Source: Pseudomonadota bacterium (GTDB lineage Bacteria > CALINM01). Taken from it: a DNA stretch of 9,514 nucleotides. Positions 225-9,514 of the stretch are shown here, one piece after another (position 1 is the stretch's first letter; each line of letters starts with the position of its first letter). A program made the position numbers and the translations under genes. Location of the stretch: contig JAOAGA010000063.1 in assembly GCA_026415985.1 (NCBI GenBank), positions 1 through 9,514 of the forward strand, in the 5' to 3' direction. The notes beneath the pieces are model-generated. The model did no database searches and was not told where the DNA came from. It saw only the letters and a list, made by a program, of their open reading frames with translations.

Positions 225-1520
225 TCATACTCCCGAAACAGAAATTCCTGAAAAAAGGATGGATGGGCTTCCTGTATTACCATAGAATGTTAAGTCATTT
301 CCTACTTCTGTAATATTGCTGAAGAGTTCCTTTAGATTTCCTGAGATGGTTGATTGAGAAAGTGATTTAACAAACTCGCCTTTTTTCAAAAGGTAACCAT
401 CAAACCCAACGGAGAACTCACCTGTTACAGGGTTTACAAGATGCATGCCTATTAAGCTTACAATAACTATAAGCTCCTCTGTTTCATTAATTCTCTGAGA
501 AATATTGCCGGTCTGGTTAGGGGCAATATATATGTTTGTATAGCCATTCTGAGGAGGGACTATAACATTTTTTCTGATTGACCCTCCGTTTGATTTTTTC
601 CCCAACTTTATCCCATAAAAGTTATCATAAAGAAAATCCACAACCTTACCATCTGACAGTAAGTTCTTTTTAGATGTAATAAAACCCTCGCCATCAAAAA
701 AAACTTTTATACTTCCATTTTTTGCAAAAGGATCTTCAAAGATATTAAGTAAGGGTGAAAAAATTTTTTGTTCATCGAAGAGGCTTTTTTTCTTATATAA
801 ATTTTCTCCGATAAAGCTTTTCGCAAAGACCTCCAGAAAATCACAGACAGATCTGCTTTCCATCAAAATATTGAATCTTCCGGTATTAGAAGGGCTTGAG
901 TTAAGTAGTTTTACCCCCCTTTGGTATGCCTTTTTAAAAATCTCCCTCTCATCAAGATCCTTTAAATCATCTGATATTGAATAATCCCATTCGATCTTTT
1001 CATCATCTCCCTTTGCAACCACTACAACAACGCCAAGTGAGTATTTCTGGTATTTTTGTTTTGCTAAACCAGCTTTTGAGTTATAAAACTCAATATCTAC
1101 TTCTTCTCCGCTTACCGAAATACGTTCTATCTTTTTTATGTGAGGGTATTCTTTCCTAACTTCCAGGATTGGTCTTATTTTGTTCCTTAACCTTCTGCCA
1201 TCATATTCCGTCAAATCAGTTTTGAACTCCTGACCATCTTTTATATCAGGGACGGGCAAAACATTGGCCTCATCTTCAAAGGAACTTTTTAATGCAAAAC
1301 TTAAATTTTCAAGAATCAGATCTTCATCGTAGCTTTCCCCGCTTATGTAAATAAAACCTCTCTTACCGTCCTTGAAAACCCTTACCGCTGTATTTAAAGA
1401 AGCGATGAAATCCTCTTTGTTGCTATCATCGGTATTTTCAACAACTCTGACAACCTTTTTTTCCCGCCATATCTCAAAGTCTTTATATTCCTTATTAACT
1501 ATATTAATAATCTTTTCCAT
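225..1520 (-). CDS. pmbA: TldE/PmbA family protein (metalloprotease-complex subunit)
   Basis: A 431-residue protein, close to the usual length of PmbA/TldE (about 450). The C-terminal third is diagnostic: GMHLVNPVTGEFSVGFDGYL (about residues 358-377), then TISGNL, VGNDL and a final GSPSILFSGISVSG block. A VFFDGEGFIT segment near the middle matches the conserved family core. No HExxxH zinc motif is present, as expected: in the TldD/TldE heterodimer the metal site sits on TldD and TldE is the partner subunit. In E. coli the complex trims microcin B17 precursor and degrades unfolded CcdA; the substrate here is unknown. The ATG at 1520 is preceded by AGGGA at a suitable distance. It lies 29 bases after the acetyltransferase gene and 34 bases before the malic enzyme gene, so it is within the operon. 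No tldD is visible in the window. Confidence 0.9.
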   Translation of the reverse strand: MEKIINIVNKEYKDFEIWREKKVVRVVENTDDSNKEDFIASLNTAVRVFKDGKRGFIYISGESYDEDLILENLSFALKSSFEDEANVLPVPDIKDGQEFKTDLTEYDGRRLRNKIRPILEVRKEYPHIKKIERISVSGEEVDIEFYNSKAGLAKQKYQKYSLGVVVVVAKGDDEKIEWDYSISDDLKDLDEREIFKKAYQRGVKLLNSSPSNTGRFNILMESRSVCDFLEVFAKSFIGENLYKKKSLFDEQKIFSPLLNIFEDPFAKNGSIKVFFDGEGFITSKKNLLSDGKVVDFLYDNFYGIKLGKKSNGGSIRKNVIVPPQNGYTNIYIAPNQTGNISQRINETEELIVIVSLIGMHLVNPVTGEFSVGFDGYLLKKGEFVKSLSQSTISGNLKELFSNITEVGNDLTFYGNTGSPSILFSGISVSGV

Positions 1521-1549
1521 TTTTATCCCTGCATTTTCTCTGTTAACTT

Positions 1550-2002
1550 TTAATATAAAAGTTTTATAACCGCAACCTCGTCACAATCGGGAAACTTAGA
1601 ACACTTTATGCAATCAGACCAAATCTTGTGAGGAAGCTCTCTTTTGTCAATCTCCTGAAAACTAAACTTCTTAAAAAACTCAACCTGATAGGTTAGGGCA
1701 AATATCTTTTTTAACCCCAGCTCTTTTGCTTCATCAAGACAGGCCATCAGAAGCCGTGAACCATATTTGTGCCTTCTTTTGTCCTCTCTCACCATAAGAG
1801 ACCTGACTTCTGCCAGATCTTCCCAGCATATATGAAGGGCCGATACCCCAACCAACTCTTCTCCTTCAAAAAGGACAAAGTAATCTCTGATATTATCATA
1901 TATCTCGTTTAGTGAACGGGGTAAAAGCTCTCCTTTTTTAGAGCCATCAAGCAATAACTGATGAATCTTTTTACCGTCAATGACTTTTGCCTTTCTAATC
2001 AA
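1550..2002 (-). CDS. argA: GNAT N-acetyltransferase, short-form N-acetylglutamate synthase (ArgA-like)
   Basis: A 150-residue single-domain GNAT protein. It begins MIRKA, followed by the acetyl-CoA-binding region VREDKRRHKYGSRLL (about 71-85), and has the tail WSDCIKCSKFPDCDEVAV (128-145). That cysteine-rich tail, C131-x2-C134-x5-C140-D-E, is a feature I associate with the short ArgA forms that lack the amino-acid-kinase domain and with the same domain fused to ArgH. The expected reaction is acetyl-CoA plus glutamate to N-acetylglutamate, the first step of arginine synthesis, in the cytoplasm. The usual first Gly of the (Q/R)xxGxG motif is Lys79 here. The start is TTG at 2002-2000, chosen because AAGGAG lies 6 bases upstream; the first in-frame ATG is far inside the domain. 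The gene overlaps the 3' end of recN by 8 bases, so translation is probably coupled. Another small-molecule acetyltransferase function is possible. Confidence 0.8.
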   Translation of the reverse strand: MIRKAKVIDGKKIHQLLLDGSKKGELLPRSLNEIYDNIRDYFVLFEGEELVGVSALHICWEDLAEVRSLMVREDKRRHKYGSRLLMACLDEAKELGLKKIFALTYQVEFFKKFSFQEIDKRELPHKIWSDCIKCSKFPDCDEVAVIKLLY

Positions 2003-3659
2003 TTAGCGCTCCTTTTTTCAAAAGTTCTAAAGCATACTCTCTTCCCTTAGACTTTATATCACCGCCAAGCATTCTTGTAACCTCACTAACCCTTTCTTCT
2101 CCAGCCACCTTTTTTATCACCACATCTATTTTACCATTAATCTCTCTCTTTTCTACTGTAATATGGTTGTCCGCATATACCGCTACCTGAGGGAGGTGGG
2201 TAATGCAAAGAACCTGATGTATTTTTGATATCTCTTTAAGCTTTTTTCCTATCATCTCAGCAGTCATGCCTCCTACTCCGCTATCAACCTCATCGAAAAT
2301 CAGCGTCCTTTCTTTCTCCTTTGGGATAACATTTTTTATGGCAAGCATAATCCTTGAAAGCTCACCACCGGATGCAATCTTATTAAGAGGCTTTTTGTCT
2401 TCGCTTTTGTGAGCAGAGAAATAAAACTCAATTTTCTCATTACCTTTTTCCTGCATCTCTTCAGCAAAATCAAGATTCTCTTTTTCTATCCTCACCTCAA
2501 AATCTGCCTTTTCCATTCCAAGATCTTTAAGCTCTTCTATTATTTCTTTCTCAAAGGATGCCTTTTTTTCATTTCTCCTTGCTGATAGTTCTTCCATTAA
2601 CCTCATGATATCTTTTCTGATTTTCTGCAGATCTTTTTCAATGCCCTCTTTGTAGATATCCAGATTTTTAATTACTTCAAGCTTTTCTTTAATCTCAAGG
2701 AGATAATTTTTTATATCCGGAATTGATTTTCCGTATTTTTTTTTCAGTTTAAATATAAGGTTGAGTCTGTCTTCGATCTCCTCCAAAGGAGATTCTTCTT
2801 CTTTTATCCTTTCGATGAAGCTTTTAATATCTATACAAAGGCTTCTTATTTCTTCTCTCTTTGTATTTAATTCCTGTGGTATCTTTTCTATCTCTGTCCC
2901 ATCCAACGGTAAATCTGAGAGAATCTTTTCGGAAAGAGAAATTTTATCAAAAACAGATCCGTCTCCCTCATAGAGGTGCTGATAAGCTAAAGATAGATTG
3001 TTTATCAGTTTATCTCTCATAAGAAGAATATCCCTTTTTTGCTTGAGGGTTTCTTCTTCATTGTCATCCATAGGCATTGCCTTTTCTATCTCGTCAATCT
3101 GAAAGGTAAGATAGTCTATCTCTTTTTCACGCTCTTTTTCCTTCGACAAGAGATTATCAAGCTCCTTTCTTATTTCTCTGCCTTTCTTTATTAAACCTGC
3201 CAGCTTATCTTTTAAATCATTAACACCGCAATATAAATCAAACATCTCTAAATGATACTCAGCATCATATAGCTCTCTCTCTTCGCTCTGACCATAGATG
3301 TGCAATAGTCTCTCAAGAAGAGATGTCAGCCTTGCCTGTGTGATAAAAGAGCCATTCAAGTAGTTTTTTGATTTACCATCCCTATGAATAATTTTTTTAA
3401 CAATTACAACCTCTTCTCCATTAAGCTCATCAAAGTCAGAAAGACCTTCTTCCATCTCAAAAACAGCCTCTACAACCGCTCGGTCTTCTCCGCCTTTTAC
3501 ATAATCAGAAACACCTCTATAAAAAAAGATTAAAAGGGCATCAATAAGAAGAGATTTTCCTGCACCGGTTTCTCCGGTTAGAACATTAAAGCCTTTCTCA
3601 AAAGAAATCTCTGCGGAGTTGATTATGGCAAAGTTTTTCACCCTAAGCTCAACAAGCAT
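1995..3659 (-). CDS. recN: DNA repair protein RecN (SMC-like ATPase)
   Basis: A 554-residue protein with the RecN layout, matching the usual 550-570. The N-terminal ATPase half carries Walker A GETGAGKS at residues 29-36, preceded by the family-typical LxVKNFAII start. A long charged coiled-coil region rich in Glu, Lys and Leu occupies about 150-390. The C-terminal ATPase half has the ABC signature SGGEL at 430-434 and Walker B LIFDE at 453-457, followed by VDSGVGG and the ITHLPQVA stretch. RecN acts in double-strand-break repair, tethering DNA ends and supporting RecA-dependent recombination on the nucleoid. Its ATG overlaps the nadK stop by one base (TAATG), and its 3' end overlaps the next gene by 8 bases. 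nadK-recN adjacency is common in bacteria, which supports both calls. No LexA-like box was recognised, and control probably comes from the operon promoter upstream of nadK. Confidence 0.96.
   Translation of the reverse strand: MLVELRVKNFAIINSAEISFEKGFNVLTGETGAGKSLLIDALLIFFYRGVSDYVKGGEDRAVVEAVFEMEEGLSDFDELNGEEVVIVKKIIHRDGKSKNYLNGSFITQARLTSLLERLLHIYGQSEERELYDAEYHLEMFDLYCGVNDLKDKLAGLIKKGREIRKELDNLLSKEKEREKEIDYLTFQIDEIEKAMPMDDNEEETLKQKRDILLMRDKLINNLSLAYQHLYEGDGSVFDKISLSEKILSDLPLDGTEIEKIPQELNTKREEIRSLCIDIKSFIERIKEEESPLEEIEDRLNLIFKLKKKYGKSIPDIKNYLLEIKEKLEVIKNLDIYKEGIEKDLQKIRKDIMRLMEELSARRNEKKASFEKEIIEELKDLGMEKADFEVRIEKENLDFAEEMQEKGNEKIEFYFSAHKSEDKKPLNKIASGGELSRIMLAIKNVIPKEKERTLIFDEVDSGVGGMTAEMIGKKLKEISKIHQVLCITHLPQVAVYADNHITVEKREINGKIDVVIKKVAGEERVSEVTRMLGGDIKSKGREYALELLKKGALID
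2009..2014 (-). promoter_or_regulatory. Ribosome binding site for acetyltransferase TTG start, inside recN
   Basis: AAGGAG on the minus strand lies within the last codons of recN, 6 bases before TTG at 2002. It supports the TTG start and suggests that ribosomes finishing recN re-initiate on the acetyltransferase gene. Confidence 0.7.
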
Positions 3660-4477
3660 TATCTGATACCCCAGTGAAGCTTTGTCCGCAGTATTTCAAA
3701 ATAGCTTTTAAAGGGTGATTTAACGATGGAAGTAAATATCCCCGCCTCTTTTATAACAATAACATCTTCTTTCTGAAGCTTAATTCCTTCCTGCCCGTCA
3801 AGGGTAAGAAACAGGTCTGTCTCAGACATTATCACTGCCTTTATCTCCGAATCATTGGATATTACAATAGGTCTGTTTGTAAGGGTATGGGGACAGATGG
3901 GACAGAGAATCATGCATCTCAGTTCCGGCGTTAAAATAGGTCCTCCCGCAGAAAGAACATAGGCAGTTGAGCCTGTAGGCGTTGAGACAATAAGACCATC
4001 GGCCCTGAGGGAATATAAAAACTCATCATTAACAAAGGTATTTAGTTCAATTATCCTTGCCAGGTCTCCCTTATTAATTACACAGTCGTTTAAAACAGAA
4101 TCACTTTTAATCTCCTTGCCTTCTCTAAAAACAACAACCTGAAGCATCATTCTTAAAGAGACATGAAAAATCCCTTTTAAATAATATTCCTCAAAGGCTT
4201 TAAAGGCATCATCAGGAGACAACTCCGTAAGAAAACCAAGCCCACCCATGTTTATTCCAATGATGGGAATGTTACTGCCTTTTATTGTTCGTGCGGTATG
4301 TAATAATGTGCCGTCTCCTCCTATGACTACAACAAAATTACTACCATTAACATCAGAAACAGAAAAGCTGTCTTTAAAGATCTCAACGGAGGCATTTTTT
4401 TTTCTCAGCCACTCACAAAACTCCTGCGCATATGATTGTGCCCGTAATGTTTTTTTTGGAACTATAACTATTTTCAT
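3659..4477 (-). CDS. nadK: NAD kinase
   Basis: The product is about 272 residues, the usual bacterial size, and phosphorylates NAD+ to NADP+ with ATP or polyphosphate in the cytoplasm, the only de novo route to NADP. Motifs (numbered from the TTG at 4483): GGDGT at 55-59, GINMGGLGFL at about 76-85, the N-D pair at 132-133 (family NE/D), ADGLIVSTPTGSTAY at about 161-175, CPHTLTNRPIV near 197-207 and DGQ at 229-231. I prefer ATG at 4477 (MKIVIVPKK), which matches how the family begins; an in-frame TTG at 4483 would add two residues. Neither has a clear Shine-Dalgarno sequence. It is the first gene of the minus-strand operon, and its stop shares one base with the recN start. It lies divergent from the Rrf2 regulator, so the shared intergenic region could affect both genes. 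Confidence 0.95.
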   Translation of the reverse strand: MKIVIVPKKTLRAQSYAQEFCEWLRKKNASVEIFKDSFSVSDVNGSNFVVVIGGDGTLLHTARTIKGSNIPIIGINMGGLGFLTELSPDDAFKAFEEYYLKGIFHVSLRMMLQVVVFREGKEIKSDSVLNDCVINKGDLARIIELNTFVNDEFLYSLRADGLIVSTPTGSTAYVLSAGGPILTPELRCMILCPICPHTLTNRPIVISNDSEIKAVIMSETDLFLTLDGQEGIKLQKEDVIVIKEAGIFTSIVKSPFKSYFEILRTKLHWGIR

Positions 4478-4520
4478 AATCAATTTTGTAACATAAATAA
4501 AAACAAAAATGAAATAAAAA

Positions 4521-4545
4521 ATTCTTGACTTAATTACTCTTTTTT
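4521..4545 (+). promoter_or_regulatory. Candidate IscR/Rrf2-type operator overlapping the regulator's -35 box
   Basis: Compared by eye with the E. coli IscR type 1 consensus as I recall it (ATASYYGACTRWWWYAGTCRRSTAT), this stretch agrees at 18 of 25 positions and at 16 of the first 19. The left half, CTTGACT followed by an AT spacer and TACTC, is strong; the right end is lost in a T-run. It overlaps the putative -35 hexamer of the downstream Rrf2 gene, a logical place for autorepression. The match is by inspection only and the region is AT-rich. Confidence 0.4.
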
Positions 4546-4553
4546 TTTAAAAG
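4525..4553 (+). promoter_or_regulatory. Putative sigma-70-type promoter of the Rrf2 regulator gene
   Basis: TTGACT (4525-4530, 5 of 6 to consensus) and TAAAAG (4548-4553, 4 of 6) are separated by 17 bases. A start near 4560 would give a leader of about 22 bases. The spacer contains a run of nine T (4540-4548). A small perfect inverted repeat, GTAT-TAC-ATAC (4553-4563), lies across the expected start site and could also be an operator, though its arms are only 4 bases. Confidence 0.5.
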
Positions 4554-4570
4554 TATTACATACAAATTTT

Positions 4571-4574
4571 GGAG
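4571..4574 (+). promoter_or_regulatory. Ribosome binding site of the Rrf2 regulator
   Basis: GGAG is 7 bases upstream of the ATG at 4582 and fixes that start; the protein begins with the family-typical MKLSTKxRYG. Confidence 0.7.
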
Positions 4575-4581
4575 ATAAAAT

Positions 4582-5037
4582 ATGAAGCTTTCAACAAAAA
4601 TCAGGTATGGAGTCAGGGCGGTATTTGACCTTGCTTACCATTGCGCAGGCAGTACAGGACAGGTTAAAGACATTGCAGAAAGACAAAATATCTCACCTCG
4701 TTATTTGGAGCAGATTTTTCATAAACTGAAAAAGGCGGGTATCGTAAAAAGCGAGAGAGGGCCCAAGGGCGGTTATACCCTTAGTAAAAATCCTGTAAAC
4801 ATAACTATTGGTGATATATACAGGGCAACAGAAGGAAGTTTTTCACTGGTTACCTGCAAGAAACCTTCTTATCACTGTAAAAACATAGAAGATTGCGTTG
4901 CCCAGCCAGTATGGGATATGATATCCAAAGACATTGAAAAGATTTTCGACAGTATTACCATAGCCAAGCTTTGCGAAATAGCAGAGAGTTTAAAAATACC
5001 CCGTGAGATCGAAAAAAAATATATGTATTTCATTTAA
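4582..5037 (+). CDS. Rrf2 family transcriptional regulator with IscR-like cysteine triad
   Basis: A 151-residue, full-length Rrf2 protein. The N-terminus MKLSTKIRYGVRAVFDLA and the winged helix-turn-helix core are clear: KDIAERQNISPRYLEQIF (about 29-46) is the recognition region, followed by LKKAGIVKSERGPKGGYTLS (about 49-68), the wing. Three cysteines at 92, 99 and 105 (C-x6-C-x5-C) sit where IscR has its Fe-S ligands (C-x5-C-x5-C), so it probably senses Fe-S status, iron, oxygen or NO. IscR, NsrR and other Rrf2 branches cannot be separated by eye. There is no isc, suf, nitric-oxide or cysteine gene beside it in the window, so its targets lie elsewhere or include only its own promoter and perhaps nadK. 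Its 3' end overlaps the converging reductase gene by 8 bases. Confidence 0.93.
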   Translation: MKLSTKIRYGVRAVFDLAYHCAGSTGQVKDIAERQNISPRYLEQIFHKLKKAGIVKSERGPKGGYTLSKNPVNITIGDIYRATEGSFSLVTCKKPSYHCKNIEDCVAQPVWDMISKDIEKIFDSITIAKLCEIAESLKIPREIEKKYMYFI

Positions 5038-5878
5038 AAATCTTAAAAACTGCTGAAAAATCAAGCTCTTCTTCTTTATTCTTATAGGTTAGGCCAAAAA
5101 TCTCTTTAGCAAGACTACCCAAAAAAAGCTGAGATTTCAAGTCCTTTGCAAGGTCCTGAAGATAATGGAGATCCTTGTATATTAGAGCAGATGAGAAATG
5201 GGGTGAAAAATCCTCCTTAATAAGTTTCTCTCTCTTTGCGTTTAAAACCATCGAGTTGCCCGCACCCTTTGATAGTATATCAATAAGAAGCTCTCTATCA
5301 ATACCCGCCTTATCTCCTATTGCCAGTGCCTCTGATATCCCAACCATAAAAACACCAAGCAAAAGATTGTTTATTAGTTTAATCTGGGTGGCAAGTCCTG
5401 CCCTTTCAACAAAAAAGATATTACTCCCCAGTATTTTCAGATAGGGTAATGCTTTTTCATATGCCTCTTTCTCGCCACTTACAATGATTGTAAGATTTCC
5501 CGTTGATGCGGGAATTACACTGCCTAAGACAGGGGCTTCTAAGTAGTGCCCTCCTTTTTCACTGATTTTTTTGTGAAAATTAAGAACACTTTTATAGTGA
5601 TTTGTAGTTGTATCAACAATAATCTTATTTTTAAGCCCTGCAGACAAAACCCCCCCTTCTCTGCAGAAAACTTCTTCAACGGCATTACTGTCAAAGAGAT
5701 TTAAGAAAATTATCTCATTTTGCTCAACTAAATCTTTCACCGTTTCAGAAACAGAAACATTAATATCTTTAGCCTTCTCTTTGGTTCTGTTCCAAACGGA
5801 AACCTCTACGTTCTCAGACAAAAGTCTTTTGACCATTGCCTTACCTAAATTGCCAAGCCCTATAAATCCTGCTTTCAT
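5030..5878 (-). CDS. 3-hydroxyisobutyrate dehydrogenase-family NAD(P)-dependent reductase
   Basis: A 282-residue beta-hydroxyacid dehydrogenase of normal length (about 285-300). A Rossmann fold opens the protein with GFIGLGNLGKAM (4-15). VWNRT (28-32) follows the second strand; Arg31-Thr32 in place of an acidic residue favours NADP(H), as in glyoxylate/succinic semialdehyde reductases. The substrate-binding block EAPVLGSVIPASTGNL (114-129) and the catalytic-lysine motif with K167 in KLINNLLLG (167-175) are intact. KDL at 235-237 matches the conserved late motif. Likely substrates are glyoxylate, succinic semialdehyde or another small 2- or 3-oxo acid; the exact one cannot be read from the sequence. 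The start ATG at 5878 has AAGGAG 6 bases upstream. It is divergent from the large metalloprotease-barrel gene (73 bases between starts) and converges on the Rrf2 gene with an 8-base overlap. Confidence 0.88.
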   Translation of the reverse strand: MKAGFIGLGNLGKAMVKRLLSENVEVSVWNRTKEKAKDINVSVSETVKDLVEQNEIIFLNLFDSNAVEEVFCREGGVLSAGLKNKIIVDTTTNHYKSVLNFHKKISEKGGHYLEAPVLGSVIPASTGNLTIIVSGEKEAYEKALPYLKILGSNIFFVERAGLATQIKLINNLLLGVFMVGISEALAIGDKAGIDRELLIDILSKGAGNSMVLNAKREKLIKEDFSPHFSSALIYKDLHYLQDLAKDLKSQLFLGSLAKEIFGLTYKNKEEELDFSAVFKIFK

Positions 5879-5951: not shown

Positions 5952-8828
5952 ATGAAAAAAAGTTTTTTAATACCTTTTTTTTTATTTTTTTTAATCCTGA
6001 CAACAGATCTTTATTCCTTCAAGATAGTTGACCCTAAAGATGAGTTCAACTTTATTGAGACAGAAAACTTCAGGTTTTACTACCCCCTTAGACTAAAAGA
6101 AAAGGCCTTTTACATAGCTAACTTTGCCGAACCGCTATCAAAAGAGATTAACAAAAGACTAAAACTTAAAACCTATGAAAAAACTCATATCGTTTTACTT
6201 GACTACAGCGATAATATGGATGGATTATCTACCAATCTCCCCTATAACAGAGTATATCTTAACATAGTCCCGCCGGATTTACTTTCTACAGTAGGAGAGT
6301 TTGATAACTATCTGATTAATCTTTTCATCCACGAATACTTGCACATACTTGTGATGGATTCTCAAAAAGGTTATTCTGAAGTAACAAGAAAGATCTTTGG
6401 AAAACCTGTCATACCTTTCGAAAACCCCTCTGCCTTTCCTTTTTTCCTGATAACTGCACCACCCAATGTTTTTCTTCCAAAATGGTTTCAGGAAGGTTTT
6501 TCAACTTTCGGAGAAGGCTATTTTACCGGTAAGGGCAGGGGAAACTTTACCCTCTTAGAGTCCTATTTTAGAGACTCTATAGAAAAAAATGATATCTTAA
6601 GGATAGATGAGATAAATGGTGATATTGGAAGATATCCCTATGGTCATGCTCCCTACTGGTGGGGTCAGAAGATCTTTGATTACCTGGAAAGCAGGTATGG
6701 TATTGAAAAAATCGGAGAACTTATAGAGGATCATTCTGCCAGGTTCCCCTATTTTATAAATGACCTGGCTACCCGTAAATTCAATCAGGATTATGAAAAC
6801 ATTTATTTAAATGCCCTTAGGTTTGAGATTGCAAGACAGAAAAAAAATATTGATACCCTAAAAAGATCAGATCTTACACCCTTTGAGAAAATTAATTACC
6901 CCTATGAAAGTATTAACTCATTCGCTTTCTCTTCCGATGGTTTGTTTATCGCCCTTGATGTATATGACCCCCACTCTGGCAACAGACTCGTTATATACAA
7001 TACAGATAACAACGAAAAGATTTTTGATATAAGAAAATTACCTTCCTGCGGAAGCCTGGCCTTTTCAAAAGACAACAAAAAGCTATATTTCACACAGCTC
7101 TTATTTAAAGATATCTCAAAAAGTGAGCAGGACATCTTCGAACTAAACTTAGAAAATAAAAAAACAAAAAAACTAACAAATAACCTTCGTGTTAAAGACC
7201 TTTCCTACGATGATGCCGATGACTCACTTATCGGGATAAAACGAGACGGCATAATTGAAAACATTGTTATTATTGACAAAAATCTTAATGTTAAAAAACT
7301 TACCGATTTTAAAGAAAGTTACCACCTTTCAGCTCCAAAGATTTCAAAGGATGGAGAATCTATAGTTTTTACAAGAAAAGATCTGTCAGGAACCTATCAT
7401 CTCTCTGTTCTGAACAAAAAAAGTAATGAGATTAAAGATATTATAAGTAGCCCTGATTTGATATATTACCCTTTTTTCTCAAGAGACAATAAAAAGATCT
7501 ATTTTATAACAGATAAAACAGGGGTCTTTAATTTAGCTGAGGTTGAGATTGATACAAAGAGTGTAAGAATTTTAACAAACCACTTCAACGGTATCTTAAG
7601 ACCCGCTCAAAAAGATAGCTACTTATATTTTATCTATCCAACTTCTAATGGCTTCTCTTTAGGAAGTATCAGTAATACAAATCTCTCCCCCCAAACCCCA
7701 CCTGCTATAACAAAACTTGCCTATCAGGGTAAGTTAGAGTTAGAAAAGACAGAAAATAATTTCACGGAACAAAAATACTCTCCCATTGAGTCAATGATAC
7801 CAAAATTTTTCCTGCCAAACCTGTTTGTAGATCAGGAAGGTTCAGTATTAGGAGCCTTTACCGCCAATCAGGATGTTTTAGGTAAACACACCTACTATTT
7901 AGAACTCGATTACGGACTCCAAAGCAATGAGCTTTATTATAAGATCTCCTATGTCAATGAAGACTTTGCACCTTCTTTTAAAATACTTAGTTATTCACAG
8001 CCTGTTTTATATTACAAATTCTATAGAATAGCCGATTTCTGGGAGAGGGAAACAGTTTTAGACCTTTCAGCATCCTTTAAACTTCCCCTGCCCCGAACAC
8101 CCAAACTTAAGGCAGGCTTAAGATTTGAAGATAAAAACTCCCTGTCTCTTCTTCATAATAACACCTTTTATGGCATACCCGTTTTTGAGGGAGAAAAAAA
8201 CTATTTCTATCTTTCCCTTATTTATGGGAGATTCAGAGAATCACCCCTCTCTTTGGGATTAGAATCGGGCTATGAGATAGAACTGACCTATAATAAATAT
8301 CTGCCATCTTTTGCCTCTGATATAAAGGGCTATGAGATTCTTCTCTCATTGGCAAAATATTTTCAGATTGGTGAAATAAGTAAACACAGAACTCTTTTCG
8401 TCAACTATAAGTTAGGCATCTCAGAAGAGACTAAAACTGCCCAAAACGCCTTTTCTCTTGGTGGAATACCTTCCCTTACTAATCCATTTTATTTAAGAGG
8501 TTATCCCCAAAATTTCCAAACAGGCCAGTATATATCAACAATATCTTTAGAGTATAAATACCCCCTTTCTTATATTTTCAAAGGTCCGGGTACAAAACCA
8601 ATCTTTCTTGAAAAACTTTATAATGTAATTTTTATTGATGCAGGAAGTATATGGGATGATAAAAACAGCTTCAGGCTAAATGATGTAAGAAACGCCATAG
8701 GAACAGAGTTAAGAGCAGACATTACCTTAGGCTACTGGGCAAAGATAACTCCCATTCTTGGGATTGCTAAGGGATTAAACAAAGATGGGGCAACTCAGAT
8801 ATACTTTAATATTACATCAAACTTTTAG
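5952..8828 (+). CDS. Secreted zinc metalloprotease - TolB/PD40-like propeller - Omp85-like outer-membrane barrel protein
   Basis: A 958-residue, three-part protein. Residues 1-22 form a Sec signal peptide (two Lys, a Phe/Leu-rich core, likely cleavage near YS-F; no lipobox Cys). Residues about 30-300 form a peptidase-MA-like gluzincin domain: HEYLH at 127-131 (H127, E128, H131) and W178-F-Q-E181-G, where E181 is the likely third zinc ligand. Residues about 318-575 hold five or so propeller blades of the PD40/TolB type, with repeated FSxDxxxxxF-like units at about 325, 370, 464 and 509. Residues about 620-958 look like an outer-membrane beta-barrel: alternating aromatic strands, LRGY at 848-851 matching the Omp85 loop-6 (V/I)RG(F/Y) motif, and a terminal Phe. 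No POTRA domains are evident. Proteins of this layout are often annotated TolB-like or BamA/TamA-like; their function is not established to my knowledge. The ATG is chosen for the signal peptide, although no Shine-Dalgarno sequence precedes it. panE follows after 9 bases. Confidence 0.82.
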   Translation: MKKSFLIPFFLFFLILTTDLYSFKIVDPKDEFNFIETENFRFYYPLRLKEKAFYIANFAEPLSKEINKRLKLKTYEKTHIVLLDYSDNMDGLSTNLPYNRVYLNIVPPDLLSTVGEFDNYLINLFIHEYLHILVMDSQKGYSEVTRKIFGKPVIPFENPSAFPFFLITAPPNVFLPKWFQEGFSTFGEGYFTGKGRGNFTLLESYFRDSIEKNDILRIDEINGDIGRYPYGHAPYWWGQKIFDYLESRYGIEKIGELIEDHSARFPYFINDLATRKFNQDYENIYLNALRFEIARQKKNIDTLKRSDLTPFEKINYPYESINSFAFSSDGLFIALDVYDPHSGNRLVIYNTDNNEKIFDIRKLPSCGSLAFSKDNKKLYFTQLLFKDISKSEQDIFELNLENKKTKKLTNNLRVKDLSYDDADDSLIGIKRDGIIENIVIIDKNLNVKKLTDFKESYHLSAPKISKDGESIVFTRKDLSGTYHLSVLNKKSNEIKDIISSPDLIYYPFFSRDNKKIYFITDKTGVFNLAEVEIDTKSVRILTNHFNGILRPAQKDSYLYFIYPTSNGFSLGSISNTNLSPQTPPAITKLAYQGKLELEKTENNFTEQKYSPIESMIPKFFLPNLFVDQEGSVLGAFTANQDVLGKHTYYLELDYGLQSNELYYKISYVNEDFAPSFKILSYSQPVLYYKFYRIADFWERETVLDLSASFKLPLPRTPKLKAGLRFEDKNSLSLLHNNTFYGIPVFEGEKNYFYLSLIYGRFRESPLSLGLESGYEIELTYNKYLPSFASDIKGYEILLSLAKYFQIGEISKHRTLFVNYKLGISEETKTAQNAFSLGGIPSLTNPFYLRGYPQNFQTGQYISTISLEYKYPLSYIFKGPGTKPIFLEKLYNVIFIDAGSIWDDKNSFRLNDVRNAIGTELRADITLGYWAKITPILGIAKGLNKDGATQIYFNITSNF

Positions 8829-8837
8829 GATGGAGAT

Positions 8838-9514
8838 ATGAACATACTTGTTGTAGGATTAGGTGCAATCGGAACCGTTTTTTCCGTATTTTTAAAGTCT
8901 TCAGGACATAATGTTTACGGTTTGACCAAAAGAAAGTATTTAGAAGAGTTAGAAAAGGAGTTATCGGTAACAGGGATATTCGGCGAGAGAAAGGCAATGC
9001 TTGATAAGGTTTCCGATGACCCTGATAACTTAAAGGACATCCCCTTTGATTTAATTATCATTACCGTAAAATCCTTTGATACAGAAAAGGCTGTAAATGA
9101 TATAAAAGGGCTTGTCTCTGAAAAGACATTGGTATTGTCAGCCCAGAATGGTTATGGAAATTATGAGACAGCGGGTAATATACTGGGATTTCACAGAGTT
9201 ATTCTTGGCAGGGTTATTTTTGGGTCACGTCTGATAAAAACAGGCTTTGCAGAGGTCACGGTAATAGCAGATGCGGTAAGAATAGGAAACCCCCATCAAT
9301 TAATAAATGAAAAAATAATAAAAGATATTGCAGAGACCATTGATAAATCAGGCATACCTACCAAGTATGCCGATGATGTTTATGAGATTCTTTGGGATAA
9401 GATCCTTTATAACTCTGCACTAAACCCTTTAGGGGCCATACTCAGATGCAATTACGGACAACTGGCTGAAAACGAAAACACGAGAACGATAATGAACAAA
9501 ATAATAGAAGAAAT
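8838..9514 (+). CDS. panE: 2-dehydropantoate 2-reductase (ketopantoate reductase) family (partial, 3' end outside window)
   Basis: The first 225 residues of an expected 300 or so are present. The N-terminus has the NADP-binding GLGAIG (7-12). Conserved PanE positions follow: TVKSF with K78, SAQNG with N104, and the helical signature WDKILYNSALNPLGAIL (186-202) with K188 as the likely catalytic lysine and N192 and N196. The enzyme reduces ketopantoate to pantoate with NADPH in the pantothenate/coenzyme A pathway, in the cytoplasm. Other 2-oxoacid reductases share this fold, so the substrate is not certain, and the later conserved Ser and Glu lie outside the window. The ATG is 9 bases after the stop of the metalloprotease-barrel gene, and AGGA (8827-8830), overlapping that stop, is 7 bases upstream, so the two genes are probably co-transcribed. 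A second GGAG at 8832-8835 is too close to the ATG to serve. Confidence 0.88.
   Translation, partial: MNILVVGLGAIGTVFSVFLKSSGHNVYGLTKRKYLEELEKELSVTGIFGERKAMLDKVSDDPDNLKDIPFDLIIITVKSFDTEKAVNDIKGLVSEKTLVLSAQNGYGNYETAGNILGFHRVILGRVIFGSRLIKTGFAEVTVIADAVRIGNPHQLINEKIIKDIAETIDKSGIPTKYADDVYEILWDKILYNSALNPLGAILRCNYGQLAENENTRTIMNKIIEE

Follow-up and report, generated by a model that had tools for sequence, protein, structure and literature searches.

A family of polypeptides joining a predicted zinc protease, a TolB-like propeller and an Omp85-type barrel without POTRA domains

The gene and its predicted domains

The gene described here lies in a window of 9,514 nucleotides, by which is meant the whole stretch of DNA that was analysed. 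Its reading frame of 958 codons has an ATG start, is open throughout and ends in a stop codon, and it occurs once in the 1.57 Mb draft genome of the source organism (Table 1). The genes that precede it (225-5878) are housekeeping-looking, being PmbA/TldD-like, GNAT, RecN-like, NAD-kinase-like, Rrf2 regulator and 3-hydroxyisobutyrate-dehydrogenase-like, and a ketopantoate-reductase-like gene (8839-9514) begins 10 bases past its end. Inspection of these flanking genes revealed no connection to a protease-barrel function.

Table 1. Features of the gene, with a barrel-less relative in the last line
Feature	Position	Strand	Basis
Whole gene, 958 aa plus stop codon	5952..8828	+	Single copy in genome
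Probable Sec signal peptide, residues 1-22, without lipobox Cys	5952..6017	+	Sequence; relatives compared
Gluzincin (clan MA) zinc-peptidase domain (predicted), residues 27-305	6030..6866	+	AlphaFold model, fold matches, Peptidase_MA_2 in relatives
HEYLH, predicted zinc site, residues 127-131	6330..6344	+	H127, E128, H131 invariant in 166/166
Glu181, predicted third zinc ligand, in P.WFQEGF	6492..6494	+	Invariant in 166/166; aligns with M1 and collagenase motif Glu
Tyr235 (PYWWG), probable transition-state tyrosine	6654..6656	+	Invariant in 167/167; aligns with 3cia PYxKG Tyr
TolB-type beta-propeller, about six blades, residues 307-579	6870..7688	+	Profiles; model; TolB Z 24.6
PD40 repeat above Pfam cut-off, residues 495-528	7434..7535	+	Pfam search
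Proline-rich linker at POTRA position, residues 580-615	7689..7796	+	Model; linker lengths
Omp85-type outer-membrane beta-barrel, residues 616-958	7797..8825	+	Profiles; model; BamA Z about 21
LRGY, Omp85 loop-6 motif, residues 848-851	8493..8504	+	R849 90%, G850 98% conserved in family
FxDxG barrel-wall motif (FIDAG 894-898; D896-A897-G898)	8637..8645	+	Sequence; G898 91% conserved
Relative WP_118831798.1, named 'basic secretory protein-like'	NZ_CP030365.1 81325-83226 (L185:3878-5779)

Profiles, structural models and a family alignment upheld the domains proposed in an earlier, sequence-only reading and confirmed an architecture in which a single chain without POTRA domains runs from a signal through a predicted zinc protease and a TolB-like propeller to an Omp85-type barrel. 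The same domain order and catalytic residues are seen again in 166 family members, and this excludes a chance origin of the layout. A hydrophobic N-terminal segment was present in all 111 relatives checked, with a lipobox-like motif in one of them. At the other end of the chain the last residue is hydrophobic in 81 of 94 members (Phe in 49), which fits the expectation for an outer-membrane barrel.

Curated profiles scarcely detect the protein. The PD40 match exceeds its Pfam cut-off (34.7 against 20.9 bits) and NCBIfam weakly matches TolB at residues 456-545 and BamA at 807-926 (E 3e-7). Both the barrel and the N-terminal domain score below the Pfam models, and this would explain the vague annotation of such proteins. 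An AlphaFold model of the whole protein built from ten homologues (pTM 0.78, mean pLDDT 75.9) shows helices in the N-terminal domain, ~24 strands in the propeller and about 15-16 long barrel strands between residues 632 and 957. Residues 315-579 of this model align with TolB over 243 residues (Z 24.6, rmsd 2.6) and residues about 610-957 align with the barrels of BamA, TamA and Sam50 over about 280-307 residues (Z 20-22). Profile matches of the barrel were to TamA (E 5e-9) and BamA (E 1e-7). No POTRA domain is seen in the model, where the propeller runs to residue 579 and the barrel starts at about 616-632, and no POTRA profile was matched. The sequence-only reading called for a closed barrel at 620-958 and no clear POTRA folds in 318-620; the model agrees, with a BamA-like barrel (Z about 21) in the one and a TolB-type propeller and short linker in the other. 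The protein therefore has a C-terminal barrel homologous to the 16-strand barrel of the Omp85 superfamily, with its loop-6 (V/L)RG(F/Y) and FxDxG motifs, without the POTRA domain, at least one before the barrel, of the strict Omp85 definition. Retention of the loop-6 RGY and FxDxG motifs suggests that the barrel lumen is probably plugged. From the end of the propeller to the first barrel strand (positions 575-641) the distance across relatives has a median of 67 residues and a range of 61-187. In one relative (G040, L022:7856-10855) this linker contains about three near-identical tandem copies of the short peptide CDTPPTFNSRETRFLSEAKGSY, which resemble an inserted repeat element.

The predicted protease domain

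The N-terminal domain was also modelled alone by AlphaFold with 60 homologues, giving a mostly helical structure of higher confidence (pLDDT 93, pTM 0.91). Among solved structures it matched M30 lugdulysin (Z 15.5) and, with Z scores of about 13-14, M1 aminopeptidases and M9 collagenases; for so largely helical a fold such scores are by themselves only suggestive. The gluzincin assignment is carried instead by the matching active-site residues, as HExxH, a downstream Glu and a catalytic Tyr are present, in sequence and model, on a gluzincin fold. Profile alignment with the M1 aminopeptidase 3cia placed E181 on the Glu of WLxEG and Y235 on the Tyr of PYxKG, and E181 was also aligned with the collagenase motif Glu. 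In M1 enzymes the glutamate serves as third zinc ligand and the tyrosine acts on the transition state. The GxMEN exopeptidase motif of M1 aminopeptidases is absent upstream of residue 127, and nothing therefore points to aminopeptidase specificity. With Pfam, Peptidase_MA_2 (PF13485) did not match the domain itself and matched 23 of 60 relatives at E<0.01 (best 5e-17); M48 did not match the protein and matched one of the 60, at 1e-4.

The two histidines, the two glutamates and the tyrosine of this putative active site are invariant in the family alignment (Table 1). The pattern HE[YM]TH had served to search for the named set, so that conservation of HExxH is biased there, and the claim of its conservation is based instead on 39 distant members chosen by overall score only, without regard to the motif. 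All 39 retain HExxH; consistent loss of it among homologues, which the sequence-only reading had named as evidence to look for against itself, was not seen. The predicted catalytic set (zinc site, catalytic Glu and transition-state Tyr) is that of a working gluzincin, and its complete invariance argues for the N-terminal domain being an active enzyme that would bind zinc and cleave proteins. It is very unlikely, on the same evidence, that the protease fold is structural only and the protein a non-catalytic platform like a BamA-BamB fusion. A propeller preceding an Omp85 barrel agrees with the proposal of that kind made for WD40-Omp85 proteins in 2014, at least as described there (PMC4104836), but a structural relic would be expected to lose its catalytic residues, whereas all of these including Glu128 and Tyr235 are invariant in more than 160 divergent members.

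Distribution, copies and gene neighbourhood

A family profile gave matches below 1e-40 in 167 of 386 genomes drawn widely across the bacterial domain (43%), so that the suggestion that the architecture probably exists elsewhere was borne out and proved an understatement. Most matches span nearly all of the 941 profile columns and there are often two or three per genome. When 145 genomes were searched with the N-terminal domain, nearly all strong matches fell within frames of about 880-1400 aa, which indicates that protease, propeller and barrel travel together. In one genome this domain gave six matches at 1e-18 or better, of which one lies in a short frame that contains a stop. The named relatives belong to Nitrospirota, Desulfuromonadales, many Myxococcota, Aminicenantes, Schekmanbacteria, Poribacteria, Edwardsbacteria and others; the source protein used as a single query against the named genomes gave no match, being too divergent. 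Spread of the source protein by plasmid was considered and no plasmid match to it was found.

The small phylum of the source organism is represented by three genomes in the sample. The other two have no family member; both keep a protein like TolB, and at least one of them keeps BamA. The family protein is therefore accessory. Its replacing BamA or TolB was rejected because the source genome encodes both separately elsewhere. Co-occurrence with Omp85 proteins was set aside as a test in its own right, because family members themselves have an Omp85-type barrel.

A relative without a barrel is encoded on plasmid pSR116 of Salinibacter ruber (WP_118831798.1, 634 aa; Table 1) and consists of signal, protease and propeller. 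Among the short versions examined it is the only complete barrel-less gene, and its natural existence suggests that the enzyme unit needs no barrel as an export channel. Two others (G200 and G296) were rejected as genuine barrel-less copies because they are cut by contig ends. Two candidate split genes were also considered, the second copy of one genome (L189, G016:C99), which has an in-frame stop inside the propeller, and the copy of another (L190, G104:C88), which changes frame where propeller and barrel meet; either interruption may reflect decay, an error of assembly or real splitting.

Clustering of the neighbours of about 85 relatives gave no general partner gene or conserved operon. A small same-strand gene lies directly upstream of a family member at 12 loci, all of Deltaproteobacteria/Myxococcota type. 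These data bear on the possibility that the protein is a processing translocon or insertase, the barrel inserting or secreting other proteins in trans, the propeller receiving them and the protease trimming them during passage. Homology of the barrel to the assembly and translocation factors TamA and BamA would favour this, as would the keeping of the protease-barrel fusion in nearly all strong matches and the several copies per genome, which could suit different clients. We regard it as doubtful, since no client gene consistently adjoins the family gene in those neighbourhoods, the source genome keeps its own BamA and the Salinibacter variant indicates that the enzyme unit can exist without a barrel.

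Possible role and relation to known systems

The nearest parallel to a single chain with an N-terminal enzyme and a C-terminal Omp85 barrel is found in the patatin-Omp85 (type Vd) proteins such as PlpD. These have a lipase and one POTRA domain where the present protein has a zinc protease and a propeller, and it thus falls outside type Vd. The sequence-only reading drew on them for its analogy of a surface passenger, which is now outdated as the lipase domain of PlpD was found in 2024 to be exclusively periplasmic (PMC11116518); the same finding supports a periplasmic enzyme domain here. That the protein is a self-delivered surface protease, its barrel exporting propeller and protease via the lumen or a hybrid seam as in the older type Vd model, is unlikely. 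A signal peptide, a passenger-like N-terminal domain and a C-terminal Omp85 barrel are all there and the linker varies in length as noted above, but the model case has itself proved periplasmic, and two folded domains would have to pass through a barrel that retains the loop-6 motif, the plug of Omp85 barrels, and is without a POTRA domain to feed substrate. The Salinibacter version, moreover, has no barrel of its own for export. Both ends of Omp85 barrels lie in the periplasm. Together with the PlpD precedent, the intact lumen motif and the barrel-less Salinibacter form, this makes a periplasmic enzyme part the simplest arrangement. Of the two proposals of the sequence-only reading, periplasmic quality control is therefore favoured and surface delivery is less likely.

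We give about an even chance to the protein being a periplasm-facing zinc metalloprotease, tethered to the outer membrane, for quality control of the envelope or of outer-membrane proteins. Three folds, their order, the absence of POTRA domains and an invariant and complete catalytic set were obtained by computation, and the following sequence of events may be proposed around them. The signal peptide would take the chain across the inner membrane and the cell's own BAM machinery would insert the Omp85-type barrel, which would anchor the protein with loop 6 as its plug. The TolB-type propeller, standing where POTRA domains would otherwise be, at the periplasmic opening of the barrel, could dock partners or unfolded chains, and the gluzincin domain would cut the chains so presented. 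Mis-assembled outer-membrane or exported proteins might in this way be removed or trimmed, as BepA does in trans on BAM. The analysis turned up neither a substrate nor a partner nor a conserved operon, and a role in envelope proteostasis like that of BepA is thus put forward by analogy. The patchy distribution of the family and its presence in several copies in a genome would suit an accessory enzyme of quality control or processing. Glycans or lipids, rather than proteins, could be what the propeller binds, and the paralogues within one genome could each secrete or process particular substrates instead of providing general quality control. A wider proposal can be advanced only tentatively, that of an unstudied, widespread proteostasis or processing machine combining a protease with an Omp85 insertase, in which substrates engaged at the seam would be presented by the propeller and folding or translocation would be united with destruction or maturation in one chain.

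If the quality-control enzyme is active and periplasmic, it would rank among the outer-membrane proteases with a wider distribution in non-model bacteria (43% of sampled genomes). Alongside the action of BepA in trans, it would be a second arrangement that couples protease activity to Omp85 barrels, would bear on the need of POTRA domains for Omp85 function and would give the WD40-Omp85 subfamily a testable activity.

BepA is a zinc protease that acts on BAM and degrades stalled proteins there (PMC13067283). An HExxH zinc protease working at an Omp85 barrel on outer-membrane proteins would be common to both, as predicted here, but BepA is an M48-TPR protein in its own right and binds to BAM, whereas the present enzyme belongs to another gluzincin family and shares one chain with a barrel and a propeller. 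TolB has the same propeller fold and PD40 repeats but is soluble, belongs to Tol-Pal and carries a different N-terminal domain; it is encoded separately in the source genome. M30 lugdulysin and the M1 and M9 enzymes have in common with the N-terminal domain the gluzincin fold, HExxH, the downstream Glu and the catalytic Tyr, although in structural alignments they show merely 7-15% sequence identity to it. To our knowledge none of them carries a TolB-type propeller or a barrel of the outer membrane.

Heinz and Lithgow (2014; PMC4104836) listed POTRA-less Omp85 subfamilies, including WD40-Omp85 with a TolB-like propeller, and it is thus not strictly true, as had been stated for this locus, that known Omp85 proteins carry POTRA domains. 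Their text on the subfamily likens it to a BamA-BamB fusion and does not mention a protease; a 2024 paper still described these Omp85 subfamilies as not well characterised. The present family shares with WD40-Omp85 a TolB-like propeller that precedes the Omp85 barrel, the lack of POTRA domains and a scattered occurrence across phyla, whereas the gluzincin active site that here precedes the propeller is not part of that account. Compared by description of architecture, the two are likely to be the same set, and the present results suggest that the subfamily has been taken for a platform of propeller and barrel, its enzyme being overlooked. The same survey defined a separate 'metalloprotease' Omp85 group by PF00149 (PMC4104836). 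In the open-licence literature no experimental study was found of the protein or its layout, nor of PD40, Omp85 and peptidase together, and within that literature a true metalloprotease-Omp85 appears to be previously undescribed. PF00149 is a calcineurin-like phosphoesterase family, and the name 'metalloprotease' as the survey applies it is therefore probably a misnomer. Against the known propeller-barrel architecture, the new element is the protease, in a family that is large and has been neglected.
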